Notes under the pieces: generated by a model
What the model saw: only the letters and a program-made list of their open reading frames with translations
What the model was told of the DNA's origin: nothing
The model's database searches: none
Source of the DNA: Nothopassalora personata
Taxonomy: Eukaryota > Ascomycota > Dothideomycetes > Mycosphaerellales > Mycosphaerellaceae
Reading direction: 5' to 3'
DNA: 64,000 nucleotides
NCBI GenBank assembly: GCA_033816765.1
Contig: CM066297.1
Span: 496,001-560,000, forward strand
Translations under genes and position numbers: made by a program
Part shown: one piece after another, positions 24,132 to 56,832 of the stretch
How the letters are laid out: each line of letters opens with the position of its first letter
Numbering within the stretch: the stretch's first letter is position 1

Positions 24132-25862
24132 GTAGCGTTATTAAGTACAATTTTAGTATAGTAGCCGTACCTATAGAAGACATCCTTATATAGAAACTTA
24201 GTAACCGTCTTAGAGCTAGGAGGTGCCCTCGTTACTCTAGCCTCGATCTAGTTACTAAGTACTTCGCGCGTAACTAGGAGGTATCTATTTTTATACACCT
24301 AGACGGGGTCTAAGTACTACTTCTTACTAATAACCTAAGGTGTCGATAAGTAAAGCTTACTAGCGCGCTAGTTACCTTCGCGAAACCTATAAGGAGCATA
24401 ACTTTAAACCTACGTAGAGACATTAGCGAAGTACCCGTCCTAGTAATACCGATCGGAAATAAGGTTATATACGACCTTAGCGCTGCGATAACCGTGTCTC
24501 TTATAGTATTCTATAACGATCTCCTTCTAAGCCTTATTTATTATCGTTAATTATAAGTTATAACGGTACTCCTCGGCGCTTCTCGAAGAATAGTAATTAA
24601 TCCCGGATAAAGAAATTAACGCTCTTCTTTACTAGCCGCCGGTACTTAGTACGGGTAATACTATCGGGCCGGGTCCTAGTTTCTATAACCTAAGTAAGTT
24701 GCTAAGAGCTTTTAGAATATTAGTCCCCGAGATGTCGTGTTTTCTAGATTTTAACTAGATAGGTATCGACCGGCTCCGGGTACCCGAATAGCTTATTATT
24801 AATTATCCGGTCGACTTTGTCTTCGTTAGCTTCTATAGGTTCCTAAAGTGTAGAGGGCCTACGAGACAGGGCATCTAGGCTAGTATACCTAGTCCCCGTA
24901 ACGTGCTTTACTTCGAACGTAAATAGCCTAATCTATACGACCTACCGGGCTATTACCGAGTTAGGCAGGTCTAAAGCCGGCCGGTTAAGCTACTATATAA
25001 GTGTCTTAGTATTAACCTTAAGGATAAAATTAACGCTAGTAACATATCTCTAGATCTTCTTAAGCCCCTTAAGGACCCTAAGGCATTCCCGCTTACTAGT
25101 ATTATATCTAGATTCTAACGCGTTCTAGACTCTACTCTTATACCGTACCGGGTAACGCCGTCGGGTACTGTCTATTAATTCTTAAGAAACGATACATTCC
25201 TATCTAGTGCCGCTAGTATTAACTAAGACAAAGATAGACCTAGTACTAGGTAAGTAGTAGAGGGTAACTAAAGCTAGAGCCTATATAAGATATCTAGTAA
25301 CCTCTTCTTTCAAGAACTGCTCATTTTCTATCTAGGTGAACTCGGCGTCCTTCTTTAGTAGCTTATATATTAGTCGAGCGATAATAACGAACTAGGGGAT
25401 CTATATCCGGAAGTATATATATAGCCCTACATAGGTGCGGACCTCCTTAATATAGGTAGGCGTAGGCTAATCTAGGATCTTAGCTATAACCTTTAGGTTA
25501 GGATAGCAACTATCCGGGCTAGTAACGTACCTAACAATCTTAAGCTTTTTGTATAACTATTAGGATTTGCCTCTAGTAACTACCGTACTAGCTCTTTCTA
25601 AGTTAGTAAGAACTAGATCTAGGGAAATAATATGCTTAACGACCTATTTCCTTAACCTAGGCTCTACTTCTATATTCCTATAGTCCTTAGTTAGTCCCTT
25701 AATACCGATGTTATCGAGAAACGGCTTCGCTCGATGCGAGATATAATTAAGTAGAATCTTTATTACCGCACGTACGAACTAAGTAACTAAATTAGTAGCT
25801 CCTTAATTGATTGATTGATTATTCCATTAACGTGCTATTTGAGTCAAAGACTATGCAACACG

Positions 25863-25880
25863 GGTCTCGAGAACGAGACC
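25863..25880 (-). other. Hairpin near the RzR 3' end
   Basis: ggtctcg-agaa-cgagacc: perfect 7-bp arms with a 4-nt spacer, about 56 nt from the 3' terminus in the element's sense. It is present in all three RzR copies. LINE/SINE 3' ends often carry a hairpin recognised by the partner RT; that role here is inference. Confidence 0.45.
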
Positions 25881-26488
25881 AAAATTTGAGAGAAGGAGAA
25901 AAGCCCCGTCGTACCCCGGACGTAAAAACTCCTTAAAAGATGCGAGCAACGCTCGCTATTCGAACCGTAAATCGAATATATTGCGGCGTAGTACGCGCGT
26001 ACCCGGTAGTCGTGTCTTGTCGAGAATTGCGGTTTGTCGCCTTGCCCCGGGCGAGACAAGTTTTGCGCCCGTGTCTCGTTCTTGTTTTAAAAAGCCAAGC
26101 CGGCCGTACCCGTACGCACCGAGCAAAATCCCAAGAAACACCCGTTGCCTCTGTTTCAATCCAGTCGCGTTCTCCGGTCTCGAGTGTAGCTCCTCGGTCG
26201 CAGTGGCCTCGCTGTCGTCCCCCCCTCGGCCTCTCTTGGTTCCAGCCGTGCAGTATACGTGGTTTGCGCCCCTAAACGCCTCTCTTGGTTCCAGCCGGCA
26301 GTTTACGTGGTTTGCCGGGACGACAGGTAGACAGCGCCTTCGTTGTTCGAGCGACGTGTACGCTATGTACGTCGCTTTCCCTTCTCGCAGTTCCGGAGTT
26401 CTTGTTTGTAGATTTCGAGCGTATCTCGTTCGTTCGGTTCGTCCGACCTGTCTTTTCTTGTTTCGAGTCGAGTAGGCTTGTATTTTTT

Positions 26489-26572
26489 CGAGAGAGAGAG
26501 TCTTAGTTTCTCTTCGTCGTAACGAAGATACTTACGTCGTCCGCCGCGTGAAGGCGCTCTCTATAGGACGAC
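26489..26572 (-). ncRNA. HDV-like self-cleaving ribozyme at the RzR-1 5' end
   Basis: Numbering from 26572 on the minus strand: P1 is GTCGTCC (1-7) with GGACGAC (31-37), seven perfect pairs. P2 is AGAGAG (11-16) with CTCTCT (73-78). P3 is GCC (18-20) with GGC (28-30), closing the 7-nt loop TTCACGC, which resembles the HDV L3 (UCCUCGC). P4 is TCTTCGT (45-51) with ACGAAGA (56-62), capped by TACG. J4/2 is GAAACTAAGA, with a CUAAG in which C67 matches the catalytic cytosine position. P1.1 is weak (C23-G38 plus a U-U). Cleavage 5' of G1 would fall exactly at the element/target boundary, as in R2-type LINEs. Function is inferred from fold and position. Confidence 0.82.
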
Positions 26573-28005
26573 TAGTAGCTCCTTAAGGTAGAGTCGTGTT
26601 ACGTACTAGGCTAAGAGGGGTTATAAAGGCTATTAAGTCCCGGTAGGACTTATCTAAAGTGATCTAATTATAACCTAAAAACAGGTCTATAAGTGAAGCG
26701 ACTCGGTACCCGGTAAAATCCTCTAAGAAGCTATCCGTGTCCGGTAGAATGTTAGCATCGCGTATAGTAACCTTATTTAGGAGTATAGCTAAATTAATTA
26801 ACTAATATAGCACATCGCTTCTAGAGGCATTAACTTTCTTTACGGCTAGGAACTAGCTATTAGAATATGCCCCCTATAAGTATTCTAGGATGTTGTTCTT
26901 AATCCGGGCCCTAATTATGCGTTTAACAACTGCCCTAAGACTTAGGTACAACCGGATAGGGCGTGCCTACTATAGCTTATAAGGGACCGTATAAATCTTC
27001 TAATGTAGTATAACGTCGTGCCTAATTTACCTTATGTAAGTAGAATCCTAAGCGAGGGCTGCCTCCCGGTTATAGAGTATCTTATTAAATAAGGCCCTTT
27101 CTATTACTAATAGCTTAATGCTAACCTTAATTAAGGTAAGCCGTTCTAGAGTAATCCGGCTACCTCGCTCTATACTTAAGAATTTCTTAGTTAAGTACTT
27201 CCCGTTAAACGGACCTTATCCTTTAGGCATCTTAGACTCTAGGTATAGTGCCCTACGCTTCTATTCTATATCTCCCTTAACTCGTAATTCTAGGCGCTCG
27301 TAAACGCTCGCGTCTACTAGCTTCTTCTTATCCGCCTTACGCTTGTACATCGTAAAGACCTACGGTATCCTAATGTTAGCTATATATTAGCCTACTTATT
27401 ACTTCCGTGCCTAAGCATTTAATGTAGATTACCTTAAGATCTCGGAGGGCTAATTCCCTTAAACTAAATAAACGTTAGTAATAGAATCTCCCTTAAACGC
27501 GCCTATTCTAATTTCTATAACTCGTTCCTTTATTCTAGCACTCCTAAGCAATCCTAATAAGTAAGCTAAATAGTTACTAGGCGTTAGAGCCTTGCCGGGT
27601 TCCTATAGATGCGTCGTGTCGCAGTCCTATCCGTTTTCCTTACTATAGCTATTTGCCGGTCCCGGGACCGGTAAATTAAAGTCCGAGGTTTCTCCGAGAT
27701 AGTACGAGAACCTTACTAATTTTATTAAATCCGGCTTTAGCAAGTTAACGGTAGGTTAAGCGCCGTAAATTAACCTACCCTTCTATTTCCCGACGCTTTT
27801 AACAGTTCTTAAAGGGTCTTACACCTATCCGAACTAATTAGGGTAGTAAACATAACACTTTTACCTTTACGGCTAGTAATAGTCCCCTTCTACGAACTAT
27901 TATCGCAGTTACGGGCAGTAAGCCGCACCTTACGGGCCTACGGTCGTCCTAGGATTGTTAGTAAGTTTAGATCCGAGGAGATAAACATATCTACCTAGTA
28001 GTAAA

Positions 28006-29061: not shown

Positions 29062-29135
29062 GGCTAGGTAGCTTAGTAGTAGAGCGTAAGCTATCTACAC
29101 TCTTAAGGTCGTAGGTTCGATTCCTACCCTAGTCG
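29062..29135 (+). tRNA. tRNA-like sequence within GyC-1 (Pol III box A/B), probably not a working tRNA
   Basis: 74 nt. Acceptor GGCTAGG pairs with CCTAGTC (one G-U), the D-arm is GCTT...GAGC, and the T-arm GTAGG-TTCGATT-CCTAC is intact. GGTTCGATTCC matches the Pol III B box exactly and TAGCTTAGTAG fits a RIP-altered A box. The anticodon region is irregular: ACTCTTAA resembles a Lys CUU loop, but no proper 5-bp stem closes a 7-nt loop. A second copy is in GyC-2 at 52168-52241, at the same place relative to pol. Confidence 0.6.
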
Positions 29136-45319: not shown

Positions 45320-46080
45320 TTGATTGATTATTCCATTAACGTGCTATTTGAGTCAAAGACTATGCAACACGGGTCTCGAGAACGAGACCAAAATTTGAGA
45401 GAAGGAGAAAAGCCCCGTCGTACCCCGGACGTAAAAACTCCTTAAAAGATGCGAGCAACGCTCGCTATTCGAACCGTAAATCGAATATATTGCGGCGTAG
45501 TACGCGCGTACCCGGTAGTCGTGTCTTGTCGAGAATTGCGGTTTGTCGCCTTGCCCCGGGCGAGACAAGTTTTGCGCCCGTGTCTCGTTCTTGTTTTAAA
45601 AAGCCAAGCCGGCCGTACCCGTACGCACCGAGCAAAATCCCAAGAAACACCCGTTGCCTCTGTTTCAATCCAGTCGCGTTCTCCGGTCTCGAGTGTAGCT
45701 CCTCGGTCGCAGTGGCCTCGCTGTCGTCCCCCCCTCGGCCTCTCTTGGTTCCAGCCGTGCAGTATACGTGGTTTGCGCCCCTAAACGCCTCTCTTGGTTC
45801 CAGCCGGCAGTTTACGTGGTTTGCCGGGACGACAGGTAGACAGCGCCTTCGTTGTTCGAGCGACGTGTACGCTATGTACGTCGCTTTCCCTTCTCGCAGT
45901 TCCGGAGTTCTTGTTTGTAGATTTTGAGCGTATCTCGTTCGTTCGGTTCGTCCGACCTGTCTTTTCTTGTTTCGAGTCGAGTAGGCTTGTATTTTTCGAG
46001 AGAGAGAGTCTTAGTTTCTCTTCGTCGTAACGAAGATACTTACGTCGTCCGCCGCGTGAAGGCGCTCTCTATAGGACGAC
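45320..46080 (-). mobile_element. RzR-2: ribozyme-headed retroposon inside an LTR
   Basis: 761 bp, nearly identical to RzR-1, same minus orientation. Target duplication tttagatctata at 45308-45319 and 46081-46092 (12 bp, or 13 with the ambiguous terminal c). The unoccupied site is seen once at 59999-60010 in the 3' LTR. The tail has one ttga unit fewer than in RzR-1. Intact ribozyme at the 5' end; no recognisable protein. Confidence 0.87.
46003..46080 (-). ncRNA. HDV-like ribozyme of RzR-2
   Basis: Same sequence and fold as in RzR-1: P1 GTCGTCC/GGACGAC, P3 GCC/GGC with a TTCACGC loop, P4 capped by TACG, J4/2 CTAAG, P2 AGAGAG/CTCTCT. G1 is at 46080, immediately next to the target duplication. 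Confidence 0.82.
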
Positions 46081-52167: not shown

Positions 52168-52241
52168 CGACTAGGGTAAGAATCGAATCTACGACCTTAA
52201 GAGTATAGATAGCTTACGCTCTACTACTAAGCTACCTAGCC
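52168..52241 (-). tRNA. tRNA-like sequence within GyC-2
   Basis: Second copy of the tRNA-like unit at 29062-29135, with the same acceptor, D-arm and box A, differing by a few transitions in the T-arm (GTAGATTCGATTCTTAC). It lies antisense to pol, directly after the chromodomain. The anticodon arm is equally irregular. Confidence 0.55.
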
Positions 52242-56059: not shown

Positions 56060-56832
56060 TTGATTGATTGATTATTCCATTAACGTGCTATTTGAGTCAA
56101 AGACTATGCAACACGGGTCTCGAGAACGAGACCAAAATTTGAGATTTGAGAGAAGGAGAAAAGCCCCGTCGTACCCCGGACGTAAAAACTCCTTAAAAGA
56201 TGCGAGCAACGCTCGCTATTCGAACCGTAAATCGAATATATTGCGGCGTAGTACGCGCGTACCCGGTAGTCGTGTCTTGTCGAGAATTGCGGTTTGTCGC
56301 CTTGCCCCGGGCGAGACAAGTTTTGCGCCCGTGTCTCGTTCTTGTTTTAAAAAGCCAAGCCGGCCGTACCCGTACGCACCGAGCAAAATCCCAAGAAACA
56401 CCCGTTGCCTCTGTTTCAATCCAGTCGCGTTCTCCGGTCTCGAGTGTAGCTCCTCGGTCGCAGTGGCCTCGCTGTCGTCCCCCCCCTCGGCCTCTCTTGG
56501 TTCCAGCCGTGCAGTATACGTGGTTTGCGCCCCTAAACGCCTCTCTTGGTTCCAGCCGGCAGTTTACGTGGTTTGCCGGGACGACAGGTAGACAGCGCCT
56601 TCGTTGTTCGAGCGACGTGTACGCTATGTACGTCGCTTTCCCTTCTCGCAGTTCCGGAGTTCTTGTTTGTAGATTTTGAGCGTATCTCGTTCGTTCGGTT
56701 CGTCCGACCTGTCTTTTCTTGTTTCGAGTCGAGTAGGCTTGTATTTTTCGAGAGAGAGAGTCTTAGTTTCTCTTCGTCGTAACGAAGATACTTACGTCGA
56801 CCGCCGCGTGAAGGCGCTCTCTATAGGACGAC
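56060..56832 (-). mobile_element. RzR-3: ribozyme-headed retroposon in GyE
   Basis: 773 bp, minus orientation. Target duplication tatcgctagtata (56047-56059) and tgtcgctagtata (56833-56845), 12 of 13, the mismatch being TG-to-TA. It differs from RzR-1 and RzR-2 by an extra gagattt unit near the 3' end and by a T-to-A at 56800 within the ribozyme. No recognisable protein. Confidence 0.85.
56755..56832 (-). ncRNA. HDV-like ribozyme of RzR-3 (P1 mismatch)
   Basis: Same fold as in RzR-1, but position 33 is T instead of A, so P1 has a central T-T mismatch (GTCGTCC with GGTCGAC). All other paired and core positions agree. Activity is probably reduced. Confidence 0.75.

Follow-up and report, generated by a model that had tools for sequence, protein, structure and literature searches.

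A predicted fungal-type HDV-like ribozyme at the 5' boundary of a dispersed, probably LINE-dependent retroposon in Nothopassalora personata

The DNA analyzed here, referred to as the window, is a stretch of 64,000 nucleotides from the ascomycete Nothopassalora personata (assembly GCA_033816765.1, contig CM066297.1, positions 496,001 to 560,000 of the forward strand). It holds three copies of a non-coding retroposon, RzR, the first of which is ~766 bp long, runs from 26572 to 25807 on the minus strand and ends 3' in (AATC)n. A first-pass annotation, made from the letters of the window, had placed an HDV-like self-cleaving ribozyme at the exact 5' end of this element. The features that follow are given in positions of the window, and all lie on the minus strand.

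26573-26586 (minus): target-site duplication TTAAGGAGCTACTA, 5' copy; repeat on both sides of RzR copy 1
25807-26572 (minus): RzR copy 1, whole element from ribozyme head to (AATC)n tail; from genomic copies, flanking duplications and open reading frames
26496-26572 (minus): predicted HDV-like ribozyme, G1 to the end of the P2 3' strand; from pairings, alignment and a sub-threshold RF02682 match starting at 26572
26566-26572 (minus): P1 5' strand GTCGTCC, with predicted cleavage directly before 26572; 7/7 pairs with 26536-26542, paired changes in diverged copies
26557-26561 (minus): P2 5' strand GAGAG (plus one outer A-T pair); pairs with 26496-26500, double changes absent
26556 (minus): extra C17 between P2 and P3; hallmark of the fungal HDV variant (PMC5640933, in part)
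26543-26555 (minus): P3 hairpin GCC-TTCACGC-GGC; pairing, double changes absent
26536-26542 (minus): P1 3' strand GGACGAC; pairing, paired changes in diverged copies
26508-26532 (minus): P4 with loop-E motif (AGTA 26532-26529 against GAA 26510-26508) and TACG loop; both-side changes in five P4 pairs
26506 (minus): C67 of J4/2, the cytosine expected to be catalytic; found in 90% or more of the 57 aligned rows
26496-26500 (minus): P2 3' strand CTCTC; pairs with the P2 5' strand
26229-26315 (minus): tandem pair of ~38-nt internal repeats (units 26229-26267 and 26278-26315)
25807-25865 (minus): LINE-common 3' tail of 59 nt, with 95% identity to the 3' end of LINE locus L096, with the same (AATC)n; from comparison of RzR with L096
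25793-25806 (minus): target-site duplication TTAAGGAGCTACTA, 3' copy; repeat on both sides of RzR copy 1
45320-46080 (minus): RzR copy 2, the second full-length copy in the window, with P1 7/7 and a 12-nt target-site duplication TATAGATCTAAA
56059-56832 (minus): RzR copy 3, also full-length, with one P1 substitution (GGTCGAC; P1 6/7) and a target-site duplication ending 2 nt before G1

The first-pass annotation took G1 to be the first base after the target duplication, and this is borne out by the recurrence of TTAAGGAGCTACTA (26586-26573) at 25806-25793. A coding function was rejected for the element, in which the longest frame has 71 amino acids on the element strand and 164 amino acids, with a TTG start, on the opposite strand. 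The internal tandem word reads GCAAACCACGTAWACTGC...CTGGAACCAAGAGAGG, and by eye the diverged copy L170 has a single word related to it; the tandem-repeat region forms no unusually stable domain (folding energy z = 0.03). Elsewhere in the window there are two near-identical tRNA matches at 29062-29135 (plus strand) and 52168-52241 (minus strand), with 54.6 and 43.9 bits; one has T-stem mismatches, and they are perhaps repeated copies or a tRNA-derived element.

RzR was searched for across the genome (54.5 Mb in 40 contigs), and the best 40 of 378 first-look candidates were scored. The young copies analyzed comprise the window copy and 39 fetched ones, which are 98.7-99.9% identical to the window copy (L029 aligning in two pieces), an identity that is partly selected because these are the best-scoring of the 378. 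In all 40, the alignment starts at the same G1 and ribozyme positions 1-80 are identical. A perfect target duplication of 12-15 nt ends at base -1 of G1 in 36 of these best-scoring copies; in two the duplication is one nucleotide shorter at the G1 side, and in the last two none was found. The 40 copies have 39 distinct 5' flanks, with only one pair sharing a flank. The base preceding G1 is A in 35 of the 40, which we read as a target preference since this base lies within the duplication where the duplication is perfect. Exact-word counts in the genome give 269 RzR 5' heads (first 38 nt) and 290 3' ends (last 33 nt). Contigs C1-C4 carry 79 exact 3' ends, 66 of them with an exact head at full-length distance, and 68 exact heads, 66 of them with a matching 3' end, so that most RzR insertions appear to be complete. 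The remaining 13 3' ends may be truncated, or just mutated in the 38-mer.

The first ~77 nt of the element can be drawn as a nested double pseudoknot of helices P1 to P4, in the order P1-P2-P3-P3'-P1'-P4-P2' of HDV-like ribozymes. All of the pairings described earlier were found where they had been placed on the minus strand: P1 GTCGTCC/GGACGAC with seven of seven pairs, P2 AGAGAG/CTCTCT, P3 GCC/GGC with its TTCACGC loop, and P4 TCTTCGT/ACGAAGA capped by TACG. The same is true of the J4/2 segment GAAACTAAG, which contains C67 at 26506. In the three window copies, a 7-bp P1 has its first base at the element boundary, with 7/7 pairs at 26572 and 46080 and 6/7 at 56832; the DNA boundary of RzR would correspond to the 5' end of its RNA. 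By analogy with HDV ribozymes we take C67 in J4/2 to be the probable catalytic residue, and AGTA/GAA is a form of loop E. Of the 57 aligned rows described below, 90% or more have the expected base at each position of AGTA and GAA flanking P4, and the same is true of the extra C17 between P2 and P3. For P1.1, inspection by eye gives at most one Watson-Crick pair, the weak point that the first-pass annotation had itself named. The cleavage-site pair among 56 rows is G-C in 34, G-U in 8, A-U in 4 and unpaired in 10, with no case of the C-G pair of the fungal variant; by subfamily, it is G-C in alpha and G-U or A-U in beta.

The covariance-model check proposed with the original claim came out negative, as the Rfam scan of the window gave no ribozyme hit at gathering score; such a score serves to detect HDV-like ribozymes and does not define them. 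RF02682 was the only HDV model to respond, with 19.9 bits against a cut-off of 44 and an alignment beginning exactly at 26572, and no Rfam family for the fungal HDV variant responded on RzR. Sub-threshold matches to CRISPR-DR32, CRISPR-DR9, TLS-PK5 and snoR30 were regarded as chance. A strict helix descriptor matched two of the three RzR copies and nothing else in the real window, against a chance rate of 0.58 hits per dinucleotide-shuffled window (35 in 60 shuffles). With loop E required, the descriptor matched the same two copies and had no hit in 60 shuffles, the loop-E requirement having entered it after Li & Breaker 2017 had been consulted. The nested folding energy of the ribozyme is ordinary in comparison with shuffles (z = -0.12), and the minimum-energy fold includes P1, P3 and P4. 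A broader pattern scan of the same genome returned four places, all of them known members, and another returned three, namely window copy 3 and two that are member-like by their letters. Scans of viral and prokaryote contigs gave no match and are uninformative for fungi. Taken alone, the RzR fold is unconvincing; its coincidence with the insertion boundary in 40 copies and the paired changes in diverged copies raise it above chance.

Two old RzR copies first turned up in L093. A 13-mer search of the genome then gave 48 places (0 with the reversed word as control), and searching the DNA with one of the old copies gave 45 candidates, of which the best 40 were listed. From these, 58 diverged loci were fetched, consisting of 47 of the 48 13-mer places and 11 others from the old-copy search. 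L125 and L145 were dropped as an unrelated repeat with the same 13-mer, leaving 56 loci that form 57 aligned rows together with the window copy. The row of L129 is misregistered in this alignment by a 6-nt insertion, which counts against the structure, and P1 pairs 5-7, shifted by MAFFT, were excluded from the covariation score and tabulated separately. Both-side changes occur in 9 of 19 helix pairs, and 90.3% of cells are paired, against at most 55.6% with the partners slid. The covariation score is 0.240; shuffles give 0.170 ± 0.007, and sliding the partners gives no more than 0.103. Of the five covariation measures, two (pairs with a double change, and further pair types) are not above shuffles. 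P2 and P3 have no double changes in the 57-row alignment and so add no covariation support. At the third P4 pair, 44 rows have U-A and 12 have A-U, without exception, and at the second P1 pair 42 have U-A and 11 have C-G. These clearest pair switches both mark the beta subfamily and therefore represent few events.

We conclude from the alignment that the old subfamilies keep the fold via paired changes in P1 and P4. Across subfamilies, L3, J4/2, loop E and the cytosine expected to be catalytic are all retained. C-to-T and G-to-A changes, which we read as being of the RIP kind, are found in many old copies; such changes break pairs and are uninformative about selection. The first-pass annotation had held that homologues extending 5' of G1 would speak against its reading. 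Among the young copies, such an extension is confined to the one pair with a common flank, while among the diverged loci it is indeed seen in 14 of 56, in groups of 10, 2 and 2, which on our reading are probably inserted copies duplicated inside a larger repeat. One such group consists of L168 and nine other diverged loci, with the RzR head within a larger repeat that has common 5' sequence; the LINE tail was not seen in the stretch of L168 examined. A further locus, L171 (C9:1445000-1446200), has a ribozyme with P1 7/7 and no match to the LINE tail in its stretch. It lies 345 nt upstream of the ATG of a frame of at least 216 amino acids with a start that by eye resembles a secretion signal, and this ribozyme is possibly kept for gene control.

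The beta subfamily offers a separate view of the boundary. Its members have full P1 pairing only if G1 lies one nucleotide downstream of the alpha position given by the alignment, and the prediction is that the target duplication runs to the shifted base. Examination of the 3' flanks of eight beta copies showed that the duplication reaches the shifted G1-side base in five (L157, L158, L159, L160 and L129). It is perfect in L157, has one RIP-type difference each in L158 and L159, is weak in L160 (9 of 12 positions exact, two differences of RIP type), and extends over 13 of 14 positions in L129, there only after a register correction for the 6-nt insertion behind P1 that followed an initial failure. 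In L158, L159 and L160 the next base matches too, leaving the end of the duplication uncertain by one. Among the other three, the duplication in L115 is one nucleotide short of the shifted base, L151 has the tail and no visible duplication, and L149 has no tail in the stretch fetched. A ninth beta copy, L169, agrees with the shifted register over 11 of 13 nt, and in L170, which belongs to a third subfamily, the duplication agrees likewise over 11 of 13 nt.

A search of the genome for LINE endonucleases gave 18 places, 11 of which belong to one young family with 99.6-99.9% identity over at least 3.1 kb compared. A frame of 1110 amino acids is open in 7 of these 11 loci. The frame of L096 matches RVT_1, Exo_endo_phos_2 and Exo_endo_phos, that is, a reverse transcriptase with an apurinic-type endonuclease; by sequence its nearest solved structures are those of LINE-1 ORF2, with R2 proteins further off. 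The best species-named relatives of the LINE protein are Sclerotinia proteins with 46-49% identity, and other relatives reach up to 82%. It is the 3' end of this LINE that recurs as the 59-nt tail of RzR copy 1, and outside the tail RzR and L096 have only short matches at chance level. Old beta copies share a longer LINE 3' region, as in L169 with 75% identity over 204 nt. The genome is rich in reverse transcriptases, with 1916 RVT_1 first-look candidates, the best 150 of which all scored above the cut-off; among those 150 are many frames of more than 1000 amino acids, beside old RIP-like copies.

The conserved 5' start of the LINE has no ribozyme-like hit in the four copies scanned. A loose hit (P1 6/7) ~245 nt inside the LINE was the only one apart from hits in flanking DNA, and the LINE was rejected as the donor of the ribozyme. 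The comparison for a head donor covered this LINE family and 30 reverse transcriptase loci with 1.5 kb on either side. Five LINE 3' stretches were fetched: two reached the LINE end, two others missed it, and the fifth fell short. Both ends could be read in three LINE copies, where the duplication is separated from the conserved LINE start by 88, 32 and 0 extra nucleotides, the first two at L096 162-263 and L098 345-390; these extra nucleotides are possibly template jumps or 5' transduction. The clean 5' ends of RzR contrast with them, a suggestion based on three LINE copies only.

Taking the fold and its covariation together with the exact boundary, the duplications, the common tail and a young LINE with open frames, we consider it very likely that RzR is a non-autonomous retroposon with a self-cleaving 5' head of the fungal-variant HDV fold and a LINE recognition tail, whose read-through RNA cuts itself before G1 and is copied in trans by the LINE. 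In this proposal, a read-through transcript of an RzR copy would cleave directly before G1, leaving RNA whose 5' end is fixed. The LINE protein would recognize the common tail, nick the target and prime on the target site, and would then copy the RNA from the tail to its extreme 5' end, giving a full-length insertion with a 12-15-nt duplication. The ribozyme would strip any upstream sequence in each round, which would explain why 39 different neighborhoods have left no trace in the 40 young copies. We infer the cleavage, the read-through origin of the RNA and the mobilization by the LINE from sequence comparisons; in the same sense RzR is probably a LINE-dependent retroposon. The central claim of the first-pass annotation, that a fungal retroposon begins exactly with an HDV-type ribozyme, finds support in the precision of the boundary, in the diverged subfamilies and in the match to a fungal variant class whose cleavage has been proven by experiment. 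That annotation did not yet include the old subfamilies, the LINE partner or two features of the fungal variant, loop E and the extra C.

A fixed 5' end can also arise in another way, as ordinary SINEs owe theirs to transcription initiation at an internal promoter. G1 could accordingly be a transcription start set by an internal Pol III or Pol II promoter, with the pseudoknot kept for protein binding or RNA stability, and by eye RzR does contain a B-box-like word, GGTTCGAATAGC. We regard this as improbable. The word is not retained, by eye, in the diverged copy L170, and a promoter at G1 does not predict a conserved HDV fold or a boundary that shifts with P1 in the beta subfamily. The element also has no Rfam match to tRNA, 5S or 7SL, and a Pol III small-RNA origin of RzR was rejected on this result.

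Another reading is that the head has the HDV fold but is catalytically dead and gives the LINE protein a structural signal at the 5' end, comparable to the 5' pseudoknot of R2 RNA. The weak P1.1 and unusual cleavage-site pair of RzR would fit such a role. Against it, L3, J4/2, loop E and the cytosine expected to be catalytic are retained across subfamilies, the LINE start itself has no such head, and two members of the matching fungal class cleave in vitro (PMC5640933, in part); we regard this reading as quite unlikely. That the resemblance to HDV is a coincidence of short inverted repeats ending an unrelated repeat is strongly disfavored and in our judgment has hardly any probability left: the helix-only descriptor with its chance hits and the ordinary folding energy would allow it, but the covariation with its slide controls, the coincidence with the boundary and the loop-E match do not agree with it.

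More tentatively, and with rather less than even confidence, we suggest that the ribozyme acts as a portable maker of 5' ends that replaces a promoter and would turn any read-through transcript into a full-length LINE substrate, and that elements with a ribozyme head and a LINE tail make up much of the scattered fungal HDV-variant class. That class comprises 230 representatives in 26 species, with varied gene neighborhoods still lacking an explanation. If RzR works as proposed, fungal HDV-variant ribozymes would gain a biological role as the 5' ends of retroposons. A ribozyme head and a LINE tail would then suffice for a very successful element beyond animals and trypanosomes, and one genome would allow ribozyme-made 5' ends to be compared with ordinary LINE 5' ends.

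The fungal HDV variants were described by Li & Breaker 2017 with 230 representatives from 26 species and widely variable gene associations (PMC5640933, in part). According to passages of that paper, they differ from ordinary HDV ribozymes in having a loop E that replaces part of P4, one additional nucleotide, in most cases C, between P2 and P3, and typically a C-G cleavage-site pair; two of them, from Penicillium chrysogenum and Aspergillus niger, cleave at the base of P1. RzR resembles them in its nested double pseudoknot, the loop E in P4, the extra C and the expected cleavage at the base of P1, and differs in its cleavage-site pair, which is G-C or G-U/A-U rather than C-G, so that two of the three hallmarks are found. 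The words transposon and retrotransposon have no occurrence in the main text of PMC5640933, and the passages seen of PMC8216456, which cites Li & Breaker, do not mention HDV or ribozyme. Among the papers listed for the open literature, a scope outside which subscription journals, preprints, Repbase and the Li & Breaker supplements lie, we found no description of a fungal ribozyme-headed retroposon.

Short fungal elements include Mg-SINE and MGL of Magnaporthe (PMC2104539, in part) and AfuSINE2 of Aspergillus fumigatus (PMC5063351, in part). According to the portions of these sources at hand, one or more of Mg-SINE and AfuSINE2 resemble RzR in a LINE-common 3' sequence, while AfuSINE2 differs in that the heads are tRNA-related (PMC5063351, in part); the word ribozyme does not occur in the main text of either paper. 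RzR has the SINE traits of being short and non-coding, with target duplications and a LINE-common tail, and lacks a head from a Pol III small RNA gene. It also departs from a SIDE, which takes both ends from one autonomous LINE, in sharing the 3' end only. In the absence of a tRNA, 5S or 7SL head, we therefore call RzR SINE-like or SIDE-like.

The closest parallels in behavior come from animals and trypanosomatids. The R2/R1 hybrid SIDEs of Drosophila have an HDV-like 5' ribozyme, a LINE 3' end and 14-bp duplications, and are thought to be mobilized by the owner of the tail (Eickbush & Eickbush 2012, PMC3414825, in part). Like RzR they are non-autonomous, with the ribozyme directly at the 5' end and a LINE-type 3' end; they occupy a single rDNA site and take their head from R2, whereas RzR is fungal and dispersed in hundreds of copies, with a head whose source lies outside the partner LINE. 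NARTc and RIME of trypanosomatids are short, non-autonomous, LINE-related elements with an HDV-like 5' ribozyme, and the 5' Pr77 ribozyme and promoter are found in their LINEs (L1Tc and ingi) as well (PMC4035085, in part), in contrast to the RzR partner, which has no ribozyme at its start. R2 elements that cleave at the element end have variable 5' junctions, uniform junctions going with upstream cleavage (PMC3774820, in part). RzR differs in having uniform junctions despite cleavage predicted at the element end, a point against the proposed mechanism; on that prediction, its second-strand attachment must differ from that of R2.

Judged by these comparisons, RzR appears to act like the R2/R1 SIDEs and NARTc/RIME, and is neither a strict SINE nor a strict SIDE. 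Ribozyme-headed non-autonomous elements are already known from R2 and R2/R1 SIDEs and from NARTc/RIME; what is new here is that the RzR tail is common to a young LINE with an apurinic-type endonuclease, the start of which is without a ribozyme.
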